From Prochlorococcus sp. AG-363-N16 (GTDB lineage: Bacteria; Cyanobacteriota; Cyanobacteriia; PCC-6307; Cyanobiaceae): a stretch of DNA of 64,000 nucleotides. The translations under genes were made by a program, and so were the position numbers. The DNA lies in contig QCFW01000001.1 of the NCBI GenBank assembly GCA_003280135.1, positions 124,001 to 188,000 of the forward strand, read 5' to 3'. A model generated the notes under the pieces. The model was not told the origin of the DNA, did no database searches, and worked only from the letters and a program-made list of their open reading frames with translations. Positions 20,978-26,856 of this stretch are shown here, one piece after another (the first letter of the stretch is position 1; each line of letters begins with the position of its first letter).

Positions 20978-21916
20978 TCAAGTAAGTGACCCTCCGCAAC
21001 TGGATCCACTGCCAGCAGTACATCCAAAACAATGATCAGCTACTGTTATCTCCTGTCCTTCAAGTTTAAAATTTTGCGAAACCAATTCCACAAGAGTTAG
21101 TGGTTTAAGGAAGTTATTAATTTCTAATTGTTGATTAAAGTCACAATCATATATATTACCTTTCCAGTCAATACTTAAGGTATCCTTGCACATGACCAAG
21201 GGAAGATTCTTTTCGTTATGATTTTCTTTTAGTAGATCTAAATAGCTTTCTAATTGGTTCGTATGTTTTAAATATTCTGAGAATCTTTTTATTGGCATAT
21301 TTGCAAGGACTAAAAGTTTATTAAACTTTACTCCATAATTCGAGTATAAATGTTTACGAAAGCCTTCTTCCAACTCCTGCTGAGATGGGGGCAATATCGC
21401 AGCTGTTGGGTTATAGACTAAATCAATAATTAAATTAGTATCACTTTTTGCATAACCTAATTTGTTTAATAAAATAAGAGCTTCAATGCTTTTCTTGAAA
21501 ACACCTTTTCCTCTTTGAGAATCTACATTTTCTTCGAGATAACATGGAAGAGAAGCAACAACCCTTACTTTATTTAATGCTAGGAAATCCGACATATCTT
21601 CATAACCTTTCTCTCTTAGAATCGTTAGATTACACCGGTCAATAATTTCCACATTTTGTGATTTTGCCTTAACTACTAGCTCCTTAAACTTTGGATGCAT
21701 TTCTGGTGCACCTCCAGTAATATCAAGGACTTTTAAATCGTACATCCTTATTGCTTTTGGAATTAATGAGATGATCTCATCGCTCATTATTTCTTTTCTT
21801 AAGGGACTTGCATCCACATGACAATGAACACAAGCTTGATTACATTTGTAACCGAGGTTTACCTGCAGAATTTTGGGATAGCTTCTAAATATCCTTGGAA
21901 AACTATATGTGTTCAA
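20978..21916 (-). CDS. arsS: Arsenosugar biosynthesis radical SAM protein ArsS
   Basis: The 312-residue protein has the radical SAM cluster motif CNQACVHC (25-32) followed by HVDASP, the GG(A/T)PE-like TGGAPEMHP loop and NIYDCDFNQQL. It ends in a second cysteine group, DHCFGCTAGSGSSCGGSL, typical of ArsS (DUF3641 C-terminal region). ArsS adds a 5'-deoxyadenosyl group to methylated arsenite in arsenosugar synthesis. arsM is not in the window. It neighbours a Fur-family gene, but coregulation is only a guess. Confidence 0.93.
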   Translation of the reverse strand: MNTYSFPRIFRSYPKILQVNLGYKCNQACVHCHVDASPLRKEIMSDEIISLIPKAIRMYDLKVLDITGGAPEMHPKFKELVVKAKSQNVEIIDRCNLTILREKGYEDMSDFLALNKVRVVASLPCYLEENVDSQRGKGVFKKSIEALILLNKLGYAKSDTNLIIDLVYNPTAAILPPSQQELEEGFRKHLYSNYGVKFNKLLVLANMPIKRFSEYLKHTNQLESYLDLLKENHNEKNLPLVMCKDTLSIDWKGNIYDCDFNQQLEINNFLKPLTLVELVSQNFKLEGQEITVADHCFGCTAGSGSSCGGSLT

Positions 21917-21991: not shown

Positions 21992-23203
21992 TTAACTATG
22001 CTTAGATCTTGACTCCATAAATTCTTTTAAAAAAGCAATATATTCTTTGTGACCATTACTTAAAACAAGATTCAGATTTAAAGGATCTTCTTTATCAGTT
22101 ATGCCTTTAAGGCCACTTAGTTTAGTAGATGGCCTATTAACTTCACCGTCACTACTATCTACAAATATTACTGTATTATTCTTTCTAAACTCCAGACCTA
22201 GGAACTGAATAAGTGTTAAAAAATTTCTGTCACTTCCTCCTCTCATCCAGTGAGTATTAGAAGAGTCTCTAACTGAAGTAACAGTATCACCGACTCCAAT
22301 AATAGTTGGCATATCATTCTGATTTATTTTCTCTTTACATAGAAGAATAAGTTCCTTAATCTCTCTAGGCGCCACTTTGACGTTGAAATCTTCTCCTAAT
22401 GGATAACTTCCTGTTTTTTTGCCAAGATATTTGTTGATCAAGACAATTAAACCAATTTCTTTTAAACATCCATTAATTATCATTTGTATATCGGTAGTCC
22501 CAATGTCATTTTTTTGAGCGTATTTAATAACTTCTATTCCATTCTTTTTGCCAAGATTTGGTGATTTGTGAAGATAGAATGAATTTTTAAGACCACAAGA
22601 ATTGGAATAATCTATTACTTCATTCATGATTTCCTCTAACATTTTCTGCAAATCTCTCTTTAGCTCTAAATTATTCCTAGCCCTCAGAAACAAGCTATTT
22701 AAGTTAATTGTTGGAGAGTAACGTGTATCACAAATAGCTTGATCAGCCTCCTTTGCTATATTTTCAGATGAAATATTTGGAAACAAAATACTTATTCTTT
22801 CAATTAATAGACTTTTCATTTTTACTGGTACTTTTAAAAGAAAATCTTTTTCTGCATCTGTTAGTCCAGGGCAAGAAATGTTCCCATATCTATCTTGATA
22901 TTCAATTCCACAAGCTGCAAGTCCAGGCAAATAGAGTCCTTTTTTCTTAACTTCTTCTTTTGATGAAACTGCTCTTTCTATAATTCTATTTACTCCTCTT
23001 TTCCCCTCATGCTCTCCACAAGTAAGTACCATAAACTCATCTTTCAGCTGAGAGGCGGTCATTACATATGATTTATCAATTTTTCTTGTCAGCGGGTCAT
23101 TGACTAGGGGAAGGCAGACTCCATCAATATCTTGAATAATTAATAGGTTATCTATACTAGACAACTCATTTATTGTCTTCCGATAATTAATAGCATTATC
23201 CAT
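21992..23203 (-). CDS. Glucosylglycerol 3-phosphate phosphatase-like protein (GgpP/StpA family)
   Basis: The 403-residue HAD-type phosphatase has LLIIQDIDGVCLPLVNDPLTR at the N-terminus, with nucleophile Asp25 and acid Asp27, and a late GVGDTVTSVRDSS motif with the metal-binding Asp. The HWMRGGSDRNFLTLIQ and FVDSSDGEV segments are features I associate with StpA/GgpP, which dephosphorylates glucosylglycerol-3-phosphate in salt-adapted cyanobacteria. No ggpS is seen here, so the true substrate may differ. It is divergent (184 bases) from the GpsA-like/kinase pair. Confidence 0.8.
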   Translation of the reverse strand: MDNAINYRKTINELSSIDNLLIIQDIDGVCLPLVNDPLTRKIDKSYVMTASQLKDEFMVLTCGEHEGKRGVNRIIERAVSSKEEVKKKGLYLPGLAACGIEYQDRYGNISCPGLTDAEKDFLLKVPVKMKSLLIERISILFPNISSENIAKEADQAICDTRYSPTINLNSLFLRARNNLELKRDLQKMLEEIMNEVIDYSNSCGLKNSFYLHKSPNLGKKNGIEVIKYAQKNDIGTTDIQMIINGCLKEIGLIVLINKYLGKKTGSYPLGEDFNVKVAPREIKELILLCKEKINQNDMPTIIGVGDTVTSVRDSSNTHWMRGGSDRNFLTLIQFLGLEFRKNNTVIFVDSSDGEVNRPSTKLSGLKGITDKEDPLNLNLVLSNGHKEYIAFLKEFMESRSKHS

Positions 23204-23387
23204 GATAGCAATGATTTCTATATAAGAATTACTATTAACATTTTATTATAACAACTTTCTAAATCTATGTATAGAAATTATTTTGCTCTCAATATATCCA
23301 TGCTTTCTAACCTATAATTTAGATATTATAATAACTCTAAAGTTTTATATAGTTCCTTAGCCTTTTCGAAAACCTATTCAGTAAAAT

Positions 23388-24917
23388 ATGGACAACAATT
23401 TTTTTTCTGAAGCAAAGGACAAAAAAGCTATATCGCTAAGATTAGATCAATTGGAAAGAGCAAAAATAGGCTTCTATAGTGTTGGACTATACCCAGCCTC
23501 TCTTGCTTATAACTGTGCTATGCAAACTTCAGGTGATGATCTGTTGCTAGCTCCTAGAGAAGGTAGAGATCTGTTAGGAGCATTTGATAACAAAACATTA
23601 GCTGAAATGAATAAGAAATATATTGACAAGATTAGAAGTATGTCGCTCGGAAAAGACTCTGAAGGCAGAACACACATTAATACACTCTCTGACTTAATTC
23701 TAAGCTGCGAGTTGGTAATTTTAAGTTCGAATAGTAATTACATAGAGGGCGACCTTCTCAAGGCTTGCAGGATCAGAGAGGAGCTTAATAGAAAAAATGT
23801 CGTTATAGCTTGCCTTGTTGGCTCATTCTGTTTTGATCATGATACCAATGAAGCCTACGTTTTATGTCAGAAGGAAAACGATCTTGCTTTTTTTTCGGGA
23901 TTCCATAGGCATGGTTCTCTTAGGAATCCTTCAGATAGCTTTACAGCAAATTTTTGTCATCCAGATGCACTAACTGCTTTGCTAGGTGCTCGATTGTTAG
24001 ACAAGTTATCTCCTAATATCCAAGTGACTCCAGGTGTTCATAATGTAGAGGCTCAATATATTAAGGCAACCAAAAATATCTCATCTATATTTGCTGGCTT
24101 TGCGCATGCTTTCTATAAAGATAATCCCGGAATACTTCCTACTTTACTTACATTGCTTCTAGAACAATGTGTTAATCAAGCAGCCACAGTCTCTATGTCT
24201 AGAACAGATAGGCAAAGACTTTATTCTACTCAATCTATACCTATTACAGAGCTTGGTTATGGAGTGCAAAGAATTGAAGCAGCTCTTTCGTTAGAGGGAA
24301 ATATGAAGCAAGTCAGAGATCATACCTTCTCTCAATTGACAGCAATTATTGCAGATGTAAAAGGAAGTATGATGCAACCTCAATCAGGTAAACCTACAAG
24401 AAACTTTCAAGTTGGCAATATATTGGCCGACCACATGAAATCTTTAGGGAGATGCCCTAAGAACCTGTATGAATTAATCGAATGGTGTGAAGAATCTGGT
24501 TTAAAAAGAGGAGCCCTTGAAGGAATCAAATCTTTAAAGTATTGGCCAAATATAGTAAAAATGTATTCAATTAATTTTCAAGACTCTTCAATGATTGACC
24601 TTTTATATATGAGTATTTTTGGTAATAATCAAGCTAAAGAGTTAGCTTATGAGGTTTTGACTAGTAGTAGAAAAATGACTTGTTACTGTAAAGAGTCAGT
24701 CAAGCCTGCTGCAAGTGGAGAATTTACTACATTGCTCGCTAATTATAGAAACAAACAGTCTTTAGAAATTATAACTAATTTAATTTTAAGGAGGAATCAT
24801 AATTTCAAAAGATCTAGTTTAGATAAGAATCTAAATAATATTAAGTTGCCTTTAGATGATCAAAAAGTTAAAAGTGTTATTTCTTTAATACAATCAGAGT
24901 TTGACTATAATATTTAA
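23388..24917 (+). CDS. GpsA-like NAD-dependent dehydrogenase homologue, divergent
   Basis: The 509-residue soluble protein has an N-terminal half arranged like an NAD-binding domain, but the classical GxGxxG is absent (FYSVGLYPASLAYNCA at about 29-44). The middle segment VEAQYIKATKNISSIFAGFAHAF aligns by eye with the ALKNIIAIAAG region of glycerol-3-phosphate dehydrogenase GpsA, including the catalytic lysine. A long helical C-terminal half is extra compared with GpsA (about 330 residues). A role in handling glycerol-3-phosphate or a related sugar phosphate fits the neighbouring phosphatase and kinase. The family is weakly recognised. Confidence 0.6.
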   Translation: MDNNFFSEAKDKKAISLRLDQLERAKIGFYSVGLYPASLAYNCAMQTSGDDLLLAPREGRDLLGAFDNKTLAEMNKKYIDKIRSMSLGKDSEGRTHINTLSDLILSCELVILSSNSNYIEGDLLKACRIREELNRKNVVIACLVGSFCFDHDTNEAYVLCQKENDLAFFSGFHRHGSLRNPSDSFTANFCHPDALTALLGARLLDKLSPNIQVTPGVHNVEAQYIKATKNISSIFAGFAHAFYKDNPGILPTLLTLLLEQCVNQAATVSMSRTDRQRLYSTQSIPITELGYGVQRIEAALSLEGNMKQVRDHTFSQLTAIIADVKGSMMQPQSGKPTRNFQVGNILADHMKSLGRCPKNLYELIEWCEESGLKRGALEGIKSLKYWPNIVKMYSINFQDSSMIDLLYMSIFGNNQAKELAYEVLTSSRKMTCYCKESVKPAASGEFTTLLANYRNKQSLEIITNLILRRNHNFKRSSLDKNLNNIKLPLDDQKVKSVISLIQSEFDYNI

Positions 24918-24922
24918 ATATT

Positions 24923-26062
24923 TTGGCAAATACTAATCATTTCAATATTAAGGTTGTTCAAAAAATATCATCTTATTATATGCCAGATGCATCGAGTTTT
25001 AAGATTTCTCTATTGACCTCAGGTAATATAAATAGAACTTATAGAGTAACTTTTAAATTAAACGGAGAAGAATCCAGCATAATACTACAGTCGATAAATA
25101 ATAAAATTTTCGAAAAACCAGAAAAGCTTATTTCGAATTATATTGCAATTGAAGAATATTTTAACTATGCTAGGGGATCTAAATTTAAATTTCTACCCAG
25201 TACTTTCATACCAAAACTCTTAATTAATGCAAAAAATAATAATAAATATACGATTTATGATGGAGAGTTCTGGAGAGCTTTTGAATATATTCGTAACTTA
25301 GAGCCTAATACCAATTCATTTTCATTTAAATTGGCTAAAAGCTTAGGGAAAGGATTAGCAGACTTTCACAATTCTTTCAAAAACTTTAACAGAATAAATT
25401 TTACTACATCCATCCCTTTCTTCCATGATCTTGATTACTATTTATCTCTTTTTGATGAAGCCAAAAAATCATACAATTTTGAAAAAAATAGTACTATTGT
25501 CAAACAATATATAGTAAATATTGTAAATAAGGTTGAAACTAATAAAGAATATTACTCTAATTTTTACAGATCAGTTAATTCTCTTCAACTTACAAAAAGT
25601 TTGATACATGCTGACCCAAAGATATCAAACTTTCTTTTTGACGATCTATCCTTATCTGTTAAATCTATCATTGATTTAGATACTATTCGTTATGATAGTA
25701 TTCTTTATGATATATCGGATTGTCTCAGATCTGCATGTAATTCTTTAGGAGAGGATTCGATTGAATTTAATTTGGTACAATTTGATATTGCAACCTTCGA
25801 AAAAGTTCTTAAAGGATATTATTCTGCAAAACCAAATCTTCTTAGAGAAAAGGATCTCTATTATTTACCTAAATTTTTGGAGCTTGTTACATATGAACTT
25901 TCCATTAGATTCGCAACTGATTTCTTATGTGGAAATAAATATTTTCACGTAGATAATTTATTGGGTAATCTTTACAGATCTATTATACAATTAAAACTTC
26001 TTGATGATATACGGGATAAATCAGAGGCGATTTCATCTATTCTTAGAAACCTTACTAAATAA
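24923..26062 (+). CDS. APH/N-acetylhexosamine-kinase-like phosphotransferase
   Basis: The 379-residue protein has a TTG start 5 bases after the GpsA-like stop and is clearly cotranscribed. It shows the ATP-loop region LLTSGNINRTYRV (30-42), the catalytic loop LIHADPKISNFLFDD (227-241; D231, N236) and the metal motif IIDLDT (249-254). The GNINxTY and WRAFEYI motifs are closest to the N-acetylhexosamine 1-kinase (NahK) branch of the aminoglycoside phosphotransferase fold. It likely phosphorylates a sugar or polyol. The AT content of its third codon positions is even higher than its neighbours'. Confidence 0.75.
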   Translation: MANTNHFNIKVVQKISSYYMPDASSFKISLLTSGNINRTYRVTFKLNGEESSIILQSINNKIFEKPEKLISNYIAIEEYFNYARGSKFKFLPSTFIPKLLINAKNNNKYTIYDGEFWRAFEYIRNLEPNTNSFSFKLAKSLGKGLADFHNSFKNFNRINFTTSIPFFHDLDYYLSLFDEAKKSYNFEKNSTIVKQYIVNIVNKVETNKEYYSNFYRSVNSLQLTKSLIHADPKISNFLFDDLSLSVKSIIDLDTIRYDSILYDISDCLRSACNSLGEDSIEFNLVQFDIATFEKVLKGYYSAKPNLLREKDLYYLPKFLELVTYELSIRFATDFLCGNKYFHVDNLLGNLYRSIIQLKLLDDIRDKSEAISSILRNLTK

Positions 26063-26151: not shown

Positions 26152-26856
26152 GTGGCAAAAGAATTAACTCATCGTGCAGCAGAACTCAAGGATTTGGGAT
26201 GGTCTGTAAGTGATATTAACCGCTATATAGATTTATGGGACTATAGGCAGAGGTGGGGAGCTATTAATTTAGAGAGAGAAGATAGGCAATTCTTAAGAAA
26301 AGCCGAATCAGCTTTACCCGTAATTAAAGTTGGCAAACCTTCGATAAAAAAACCTATTACTGAAAAGTCTTATTTCAGGAGGATTGCTAGTTTTTTGGAG
26401 ACAATGAATCTAGCTGAATCAGAATTTGCATCTTCAGAAGGAGATAGAGGTATATGGCCAATTCTTCTTGAAGAGGAGCTTAGAACACTTAGTTATTTTC
26501 AACCAGTTCTTGGATTGCCGGATACCTTGAAGTCAAAGGCTTTTACTGCAATTAGAGAGGAAATTATTTTGTCAGCTTTAAATGATTATAAGGAAAGCAT
26601 ATCTAATATTAAATTTAACTTCTCTTCTTTATTAGCTTCTACAAATCCAAAGGTAGATAAAAATTGGAAGCCTCTAAGAGAGATTGACTACGACTCTCAT
26701 GATGATTACCCAATGATAAAAAAGGAATATGTTACTGCCTTTAGAAAAGAAGTTAGATCAAAGACTATTCTTATGATCAAAAGTACTTTCCCATCATTAT
26801 CAGATACTGATAAACCCGATCCTCCTGATGATTGGATTCCAGAATTGGATTCTTGA
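26152..26856 (+). CDS. Conserved hypothetical protein (234 aa)
   Basis: This soluble, mostly helical protein begins at GTG 26152. The N-terminal DLGWSVSDINRYIDLWDYRQRWGAINLERED is a compact helix-turn segment. The middle contains FLETMNLAESEFASSEGDRG, and the C-terminus is acidic and proline-rich (SDTDKPDPPDDWIPELDS). No catalytic motif is visible. I regard it as a picocyanobacterial protein of unknown function. It ends 32 bases before metY on the same strand. Confidence 0.75.
   Translation: MAKELTHRAAELKDLGWSVSDINRYIDLWDYRQRWGAINLEREDRQFLRKAESALPVIKVGKPSIKKPITEKSYFRRIASFLETMNLAESEFASSEGDRGIWPILLEEELRTLSYFQPVLGLPDTLKSKAFTAIREEIILSALNDYKESISNIKFNFSSLLASTNPKVDKNWKPLREIDYDSHDDYPMIKKEYVTAFRKEVRSKTILMIKSTFPSLSDTDKPDPPDDWIPELDS

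Follow-up and report, generated by a model that had tools for sequence, protein, structure and literature searches.

A gene without a family name, here called Mid (middle gene), lies between the salt-protection phosphatase gene ggpP and a small-molecule kinase gene in a 64,000-nucleotide stretch of the Prochlorococcus sp. AG-363-N16 genome (contig QCFW01000001.1, positions 124,001 to 188,000; hereafter the window). Judging from its modelled fold and its distribution, Mid is likely to be an NAD(P)-dependent glycerol-3-phosphate dehydrogenase (GPDH), strongly diverged in sequence, that replaces GpsA in Prochlorococcus and marine Synechococcus, which are among Earth's most abundant phototrophs. 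Glycerol-3-phosphate forms the membrane lipid backbone and is needed for every membrane lipid, and GpsA is the standard enzyme in most other bacteria. We infer the activity, cofactor and essentiality of Mid, as well as a new substrate for GgpP, from presence/absence patterns, gene linkage, the predicted fold and invariant residues. The source assembly is 1.40 Mb in size and 82% complete, and the closest named relatives at the locus are Prochlorococcus single-cell genomes. The features of the locus are as follows.

21992-23203, minus strand: ggpP open reading frame (ORF), 403 residues
22730-23116, minus strand: stretch of ggpP with the codons of C30, C62, C98 and C158
23204-23387: divergent ggpP-Mid intergenic region, 184 bp, presumably containing both promoters
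23388-24917, plus strand: Mid ORF, 509 residues, proposed replacement GPDH, no named family
23466-23525, plus strand: first beta-alpha unit of the predicted Mid Rossmann domain (residues 27-46, from AlphaFold secondary structure and the alignment), with a non-canonical SxGxxA/S loop
24063-24077, plus strand: Mid K226..K229-N230, proposed counterpart of the GPDH Lys-Asn pair (hGPD1 K204-N205)
24354-24404, plus strand: Mid D323..S327..R338-N339, proposed counterpart of GPDH D260/T264/R269-N270 on the substrate-phosphate side
24923-26062, plus strand: kinase ORF, 379 residues, TTG start, APH/NahK-like small-molecule kinase

Mid has a predicted GPDH fold

The three ORFs, the divergent phosphatase and the 5-base gap between Mid and the kinase gene (24918-24922) lie exactly where a first-pass annotation of the DNA had placed them. 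That annotation had also described the middle protein as GpsA-like and devoid of a canonical GxGxxG motif, and both observations are supported, the first by the fold search and the second by the sequence alignment. An AlphaFold model of Mid was obtained from an alignment of 47 relatives (pLDDT 84.2, pTM 0.83), and a Foldseek search of this model against the PDB returned GPDHs at each of ranks 1-12, with E values from 7.8e-7 to 1.4e-5. The best match is 1txg (E 7.8e-7, TM 0.68 by target length), and the top matches also include the human GPD1, Leishmania and Dunaliella (6iuy) enzymes. Pyrroline-5-carboxylate (P5C) reductase (1.1e-4) and ketopantoate reductase follow only after rank 12, at ~1e-4 and weaker.

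Like GpsA and GPD1 (PF01210 + PF07479), Mid is predicted to combine an N-terminal Rossmann domain with a helical C-terminal domain. Its K-N, D and R-N residues resemble theirs by motif, and its occurrence is complementary to that of gpsA. Residues K226, K229, N230, D323, S327, R338 and N339 are invariant in 66/66 sequences, the first three falling within the IKATKN segment (residues 225-230). Mid sequences from across the genome family are ~48-68% identical, a conservation far beyond chance. Unlike GpsA and GPD1, Mid gives no sequence-family match, lacks the TKG lysine and has an altered SGPN block. The dinucleotide loop (GFYSVGLYPAS) is non-canonical, of the form SxGxxA/S, with an invariant S31-x-G33 replacing GxG. 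Mid is ~150-200 residues longer than an ordinary GpsA, having ~44 more residues between the K-N and R-N motifs as well as an extra helical C-terminus. By the tests run, Mid looks like a GPDH in modelled fold and residues, yet falls outside the named GpsA family.

Mid and gpsA are complementary across the family

Gene occurrence was determined in a single set of 201 genomes of the family, 130 of which are of high quality. Scanning the genome contigs with a Mid alignment gave 295 matches, and with a single Mid protein none. Mid was found in 100 genomes, ggpP in 104, canonical gpsA in 90, glpD in 77, glpK in 79 and the kinase gene in 138, with ggpS in 77 once three weak OtsA-like matches are omitted. 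Both Mid and gpsA are present in 22 genomes (all of which have ggpS), with 78 having Mid only, 68 gpsA only and 33 neither. Among the high-quality genomes, Mid and gpsA each occur in 74 and are shared by 20, such that at least one is present in 128. The two remaining genomes (G013 and G073) both have a ggpP contig that breaks where Mid would start.

Mid is closely tied to ggpP. Both genes are present in 98 of the 106 genomes having either (Mid only in 2, ggpP only in 6, neither in 95), and three of the six ggpP-only genomes (G013, G027 and G073) have a contig that stops at ggpP. In a fourth, G057, ggpP is incomplete and carries an internal stop, and the genes around it are rearranged. Fetched loci that contain both ggpP and Mid have the two in divergent orientation in 75/75 cases, with less than 600 bp between them in 59. 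The first-pass annotation had proposed testing whether the three-gene neighbourhood is conserved; the divergent ggpP-Mid pair is, and the kinase gene is not a conserved partner. In RCC307 and relatives, a single island holds glpK, glpD, a TreS-like GH13 gene, ggpP, Mid, the ggtABCD-type transporter genes and ggpS.

The first-pass annotation had further proposed asking whether ggpS is present. No match to ggpS (TIGR02398) was found in the source genome (82% complete), two congeners or near-complete relatives, and canonical gpsA, glpD and glpK are likewise not detectable in the lineage of the source genome. It is this last absence, which the first-pass annotation missed, that likely gives Mid its meaning: in a lineage devoid of gpsA, glpD and glpK, Mid is better explained as a housekeeping source of glycerol-3-phosphate than as a gene serving osmolytes only. 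A total of 37 genomes carry Mid and ggpP and lack ggpS, gpsA, glpD and glpK, and 26 of these have a completeness of 96% or more. FAD-type glycerol-3-phosphate dehydrogenases normally run from glycerol-3-phosphate to dihydroxyacetone phosphate, and since both these enzymes and glycerol kinase are absent from the 37 genomes, Mid is the only candidate found.

We propose that Mid would form glycerol-3-phosphate by reducing dihydroxyacetone phosphate. Where Mid is grouped with the glucosylglycerol genes, as in marine and brackish cyanobacteria, GgpS would use this glycerol-3-phosphate and GgpP would subsequently remove the phosphate. In the simplest history, saline cyanobacteria would have had a second GPDH linked to osmolytes, which would have become the sole GPDH once gpsA disappeared. 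In Prochlorococcus and marine Synechococcus, which would have lost the ordinary GpsA, Mid would then be the only clear glycerol-3-phosphate source for membrane lipids, and this could explain why it is retained after ggpS loss. The gene ggpP would remain its divergent neighbour, with a GgpP that is altered in most Prochlorococcus lineages and probably acts on another phosphorylated glycoside.

If so, Mid would fill a gap reported in 2012, when EC 1.1.1.94 was listed among the activities without annotation in Prochlorococcus and WH7803 (PMC3369817). According to a 2022 study, marine and brackish strains, marine Synechococcus among them, carry FAD-dependent glpA and freshwater strains carry gpsA, with both genes reported for SC5.2 (PMC9361551). 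No alternative glycerol-3-phosphate enzyme is named in the available text of either source, and we found no paper naming one. With one candidate that occurs in essentially all Prochlorococcus and marine Synechococcus and has no profile-family name, this gap becomes directly testable.

Outside the picocyanobacteria, Mid was detected in a few marine Leptolyngbya-like and Xenococcaceae genomes, and a search of phages and viral contigs found none. In a Mid tree (short search, open forks), the non-picocyanobacterial sequences are located beside brackish Cyanobium/Synechococcus. The Mid sequences of two genomes of the g17 group (G017 and G116; loci L105 and L106) form a very long branch with ~2 changes per column and keep the proposed catalytic residues. 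Three bins labelled Gammaproteobacteria (L142, L171 and L188) contain Mid almost identical to Synechococcus copies, indicating the bins are mislabelled or mixed.

Most orphan GgpPs carry three fixed cysteines

The phosphatase had been assigned as GgpP by the first-pass annotation, and this is confirmed by a full-length equivalog match to TIGR02399 (541.6 bits against a cut-off of 365.5) and to PF09506 (E 6e-160). As in GgpP/StpA, the HAD catalytic aspartates are kept, with D25, D27, T61 and D306 invariant. The AlphaFold model has a pLDDT of 94, and the top 7 Foldseek matches are trehalose-6-phosphate phosphatases or a homologous domain, which makes phosphorylated sugars, two-ring or glycosyl-glycerol, a reasonable substrate class for the modelled protein. 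Unlike the known GgpP/StpA systems, the window protein comes from a genome without ggpS, and carries C62, C98 and C158 where those systems have N, G and L/I.

These three cysteines are fixed in 25/25 orphan GgpPs (those of genomes without ggpS) outside the MIT9313-type group, a set diverse down to 46% identity, and are absent elsewhere (0/28). N62, G98 and L/I158 are found in 28/28 of the other sequences, of which 25 come from ggpS genomes and three are orphans of the MIT9313 type. C30, which follows the DxDGV motif, is present in all sequences of both groups, and C62 is located directly after the conserved Thr61 (probable HAD motif II). The fixation is notable, though it may concern one clade and one event. 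It suggests a changed role of the orphan GgpP in most Prochlorococcus lineages, and the cysteines could possibly form a metal or redox site or reflect an altered substrate.

Mid shows zero fixed differences between genomes with ancestral-type and cysteine-type GgpP. That GgpP changed when ggpS went, with Mid unchanged, fits the prediction of a constant housekeeping role for Mid. The recognised puzzle of Prochlorococcus strains that have ggpP and lack ggpS can thereby be framed concretely, with Mid unchanged, presumably for lipids, and GgpP altered at three cysteine positions. On balance we lean towards a broader reading, held less firmly than the GPDH assignment itself, in which Mid founds an unnamed GPDH family, an osmolyte-linked enzyme taken over as the source of all glycerolipid backbone in both Prochlorococcus and marine Synechococcus, and the orphan GgpP, with three fixed cysteines beside the conserved C30 (possibly a metal or redox site), has acquired a new substrate.

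One tentative identity for that substrate, compatible with Mid as a GPDH, is sucrose-6-phosphate. A published study found that MIT9303, which has ggpP and lacks ggpS, does not have the ability to make glucosylglycerol, and raised sucrose-phosphate phosphatase (SPP) activity as a speculation (PMC11505929). MED4, SS120, MIT9211, MIT9301 and MIT9312 are listed as having a sucrose-phosphate synthase (SPS) without phosphatase domain and no SPP (PMC4390843 Table 1), and in the source genome (82% complete) the only S6PP-domain match is a phosphatase of the mannosyl/glucosyl-3-phosphoglycerate type. Both the trehalose-6-phosphate-phosphatase-like fold and the fixed changes at conserved positions would suit such a function. 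However, a two-domain SPS is given for the NATL strains, so the need for a phosphatase and the change in GgpP may not coincide, and the link between ggpP and Mid is left unexplained. These points make a sucrose-6-phosphate phosphatase a possibility worth considering rather than the favoured outcome.

Alternative roles for Mid

Several observations weigh against Mid being the GpsA replacement. No significant sequence homology between Mid and GpsA was found in Pfam, NCBIfam, PDB or hhalign comparisons. Neither Pfam nor NCBIfam gave any match at E values up to 1 (up to 10 for one homologue), nor did the PDB sequences, a profile search included. With hhalign, the alignment is not significant and is local to the C-terminal part for both cyanobacterial GpsA (E 0.15) and a wider GpsA set (E 0.011), although the RN and following EG motifs of the two proteins are aligned together, without significance. 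With MAFFT, the region from the first strand to the RN motif did not align reliably between Mid and GpsA. The invariant Mid residues resemble the GPDH motifs LKN, (A/G)D..T and RN, this correspondence being by motif and not by residue-by-residue superposition. In place of the GpsA TKG lysine (by motif, hGPD1 K120), Mid has V/A/S at position 144, taken as the counterpart by its location after the fourth strand, and the SGPN block reads SGFHRH. These two changes imply a remodelled pocket, and the substrate could differ. In addition, the genomes are related and the counts are not independent events, hence the complementarity with gpsA is treated as a consistent pattern with no p-value attached. 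Finally, the non-picocyanobacterial carriers tested keep gpsA in 7/7 cases (and ggpP in 6/7), so Mid is not a replacement everywhere.

Accepting these points, Mid could be a dehydrogenase of GPDH fold with a different osmolyte-related substrate, such as a glycosyl-glycerol or other sugar phosphate, with glycerol-3-phosphate supplied by an unrecognised enzyme. The remodelled pocket (GFHRHGALR block, missing TKG lysine), the tight linkage to ggpP and the glucosylglycerol island, and the presence of gpsA in carriers outside the family would all accommodate this. We nevertheless consider it unlikely, given that Mid persists without a residue shift in the 37 genomes lacking ggpS, that Mid and gpsA are complementary, and that GPDHs rank first in the fold search.

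Still less probable is a route to free glycerol from dihydroxyacetone phosphate as in Dunaliella, whereby Mid would make glycerol-3-phosphate and the altered GgpP would dephosphorylate it. The Dunaliella salina enzyme DsGPDH (6iuy) is among the top Mid fold matches, and is a GPDH fused to a HAD phosphatase domain that operates in an osmolyte context. A GPDH gene is also followed by a HAD hydrolase gene on a Dinoroseobacter shibae plasmid (L264:341-1820), and ggpP and Mid stay paired without ggpS. Unlike DsGPDH, which is a fusion enzyme with an ordinary GPDH sequence, the window has two separate divergent genes and a HAD protein that resembles trehalose-6-phosphate phosphatases rather than the SerB type. 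These genomes have no glycerol kinase to recover glycerol, and glycerol is not known to be a Prochlorococcus solute.

The three-gene sugar-phosphate module put forward by the first-pass annotation, with salvage by the kinase and a ggpS-independent route to glucosylglycerol, is very improbable despite the 5-base gap and the NahK-like kinase, as 52 genomes have the kinase only and 14 Mid only, adjacency is partial, and no evidence was obtained for the ggpS-independent route, MIT9303 being unable to make glucosylglycerol (PMC11505929).

Kinase and neighbouring genes

The APH/NahK character ascribed to the second gene product by the first-pass annotation is supported by PF01636 (33.9 bits, cut-off 23.2) and by a full-length phmmer match to N-acetylhexosamine 1-kinase 4ocu (E 3.9e-23), the best in the PDB. 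Unlike NahK, the window kinase has no curated equivalog, is fast evolving (24-47% identical to relatives) and has a patchy linkage. The 14 Mid genomes that lack it include all nine g17 genomes with Mid, and it adjoins Mid in 52/97 usable loci. In several Synechococcus lineages, Mid and the kinase gene are kept apart by two large genes that, judged by eye, are SbcC/SbcD-like. The kinase is probably co-transcribed with Mid here, and its loose distribution and partial adjacency indicate a neighbour at this locus rather than part of a conserved module. A promoter scan of the ggpP-Mid intergenic region gave no more matches than chance when compared to shuffles.

Next downstream of ggpP on the same strand is an ArsS-type arsenosugar radical SAM gene:

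20978-21916, minus strand: ArsS-type gene (TIGR04167, 429.9 bits)

This arrangement is found in 61/75 loci, with gaps mostly <130 bp, and glycosyl-glycerol chemistry might connect both genes. An arsenic role for GgpP, considered in view of the downstream arsS and the three cysteines, was unsupported beyond adjacency. On the other side, positions 26152-26856 encode a conserved 234-residue protein for which Pfam and NCBIfam searches gave no matches; it is located downstream of Mid or the kinase gene and before metB in most relatives.

Elsewhere in the source genome (C1:89935-93153, L001), a glucosylglycerate-type cluster contains a sucrose-phosphorylase-like gene, a mannosyl/glucosyl-3-phosphoglycerate phosphatase gene and a kinase-like gene; the phosphatase for this different osmolyte is a separate one. 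The TreS-like GH13 gene of the glucosylglycerol island is located between glpD and ggpP in the RCC307-type genome G024 (L115:12481-14211; also L174), and is a candidate for the picocyanobacterial glucosylglycerol-degrading step, described as unknown in PMC6753628.

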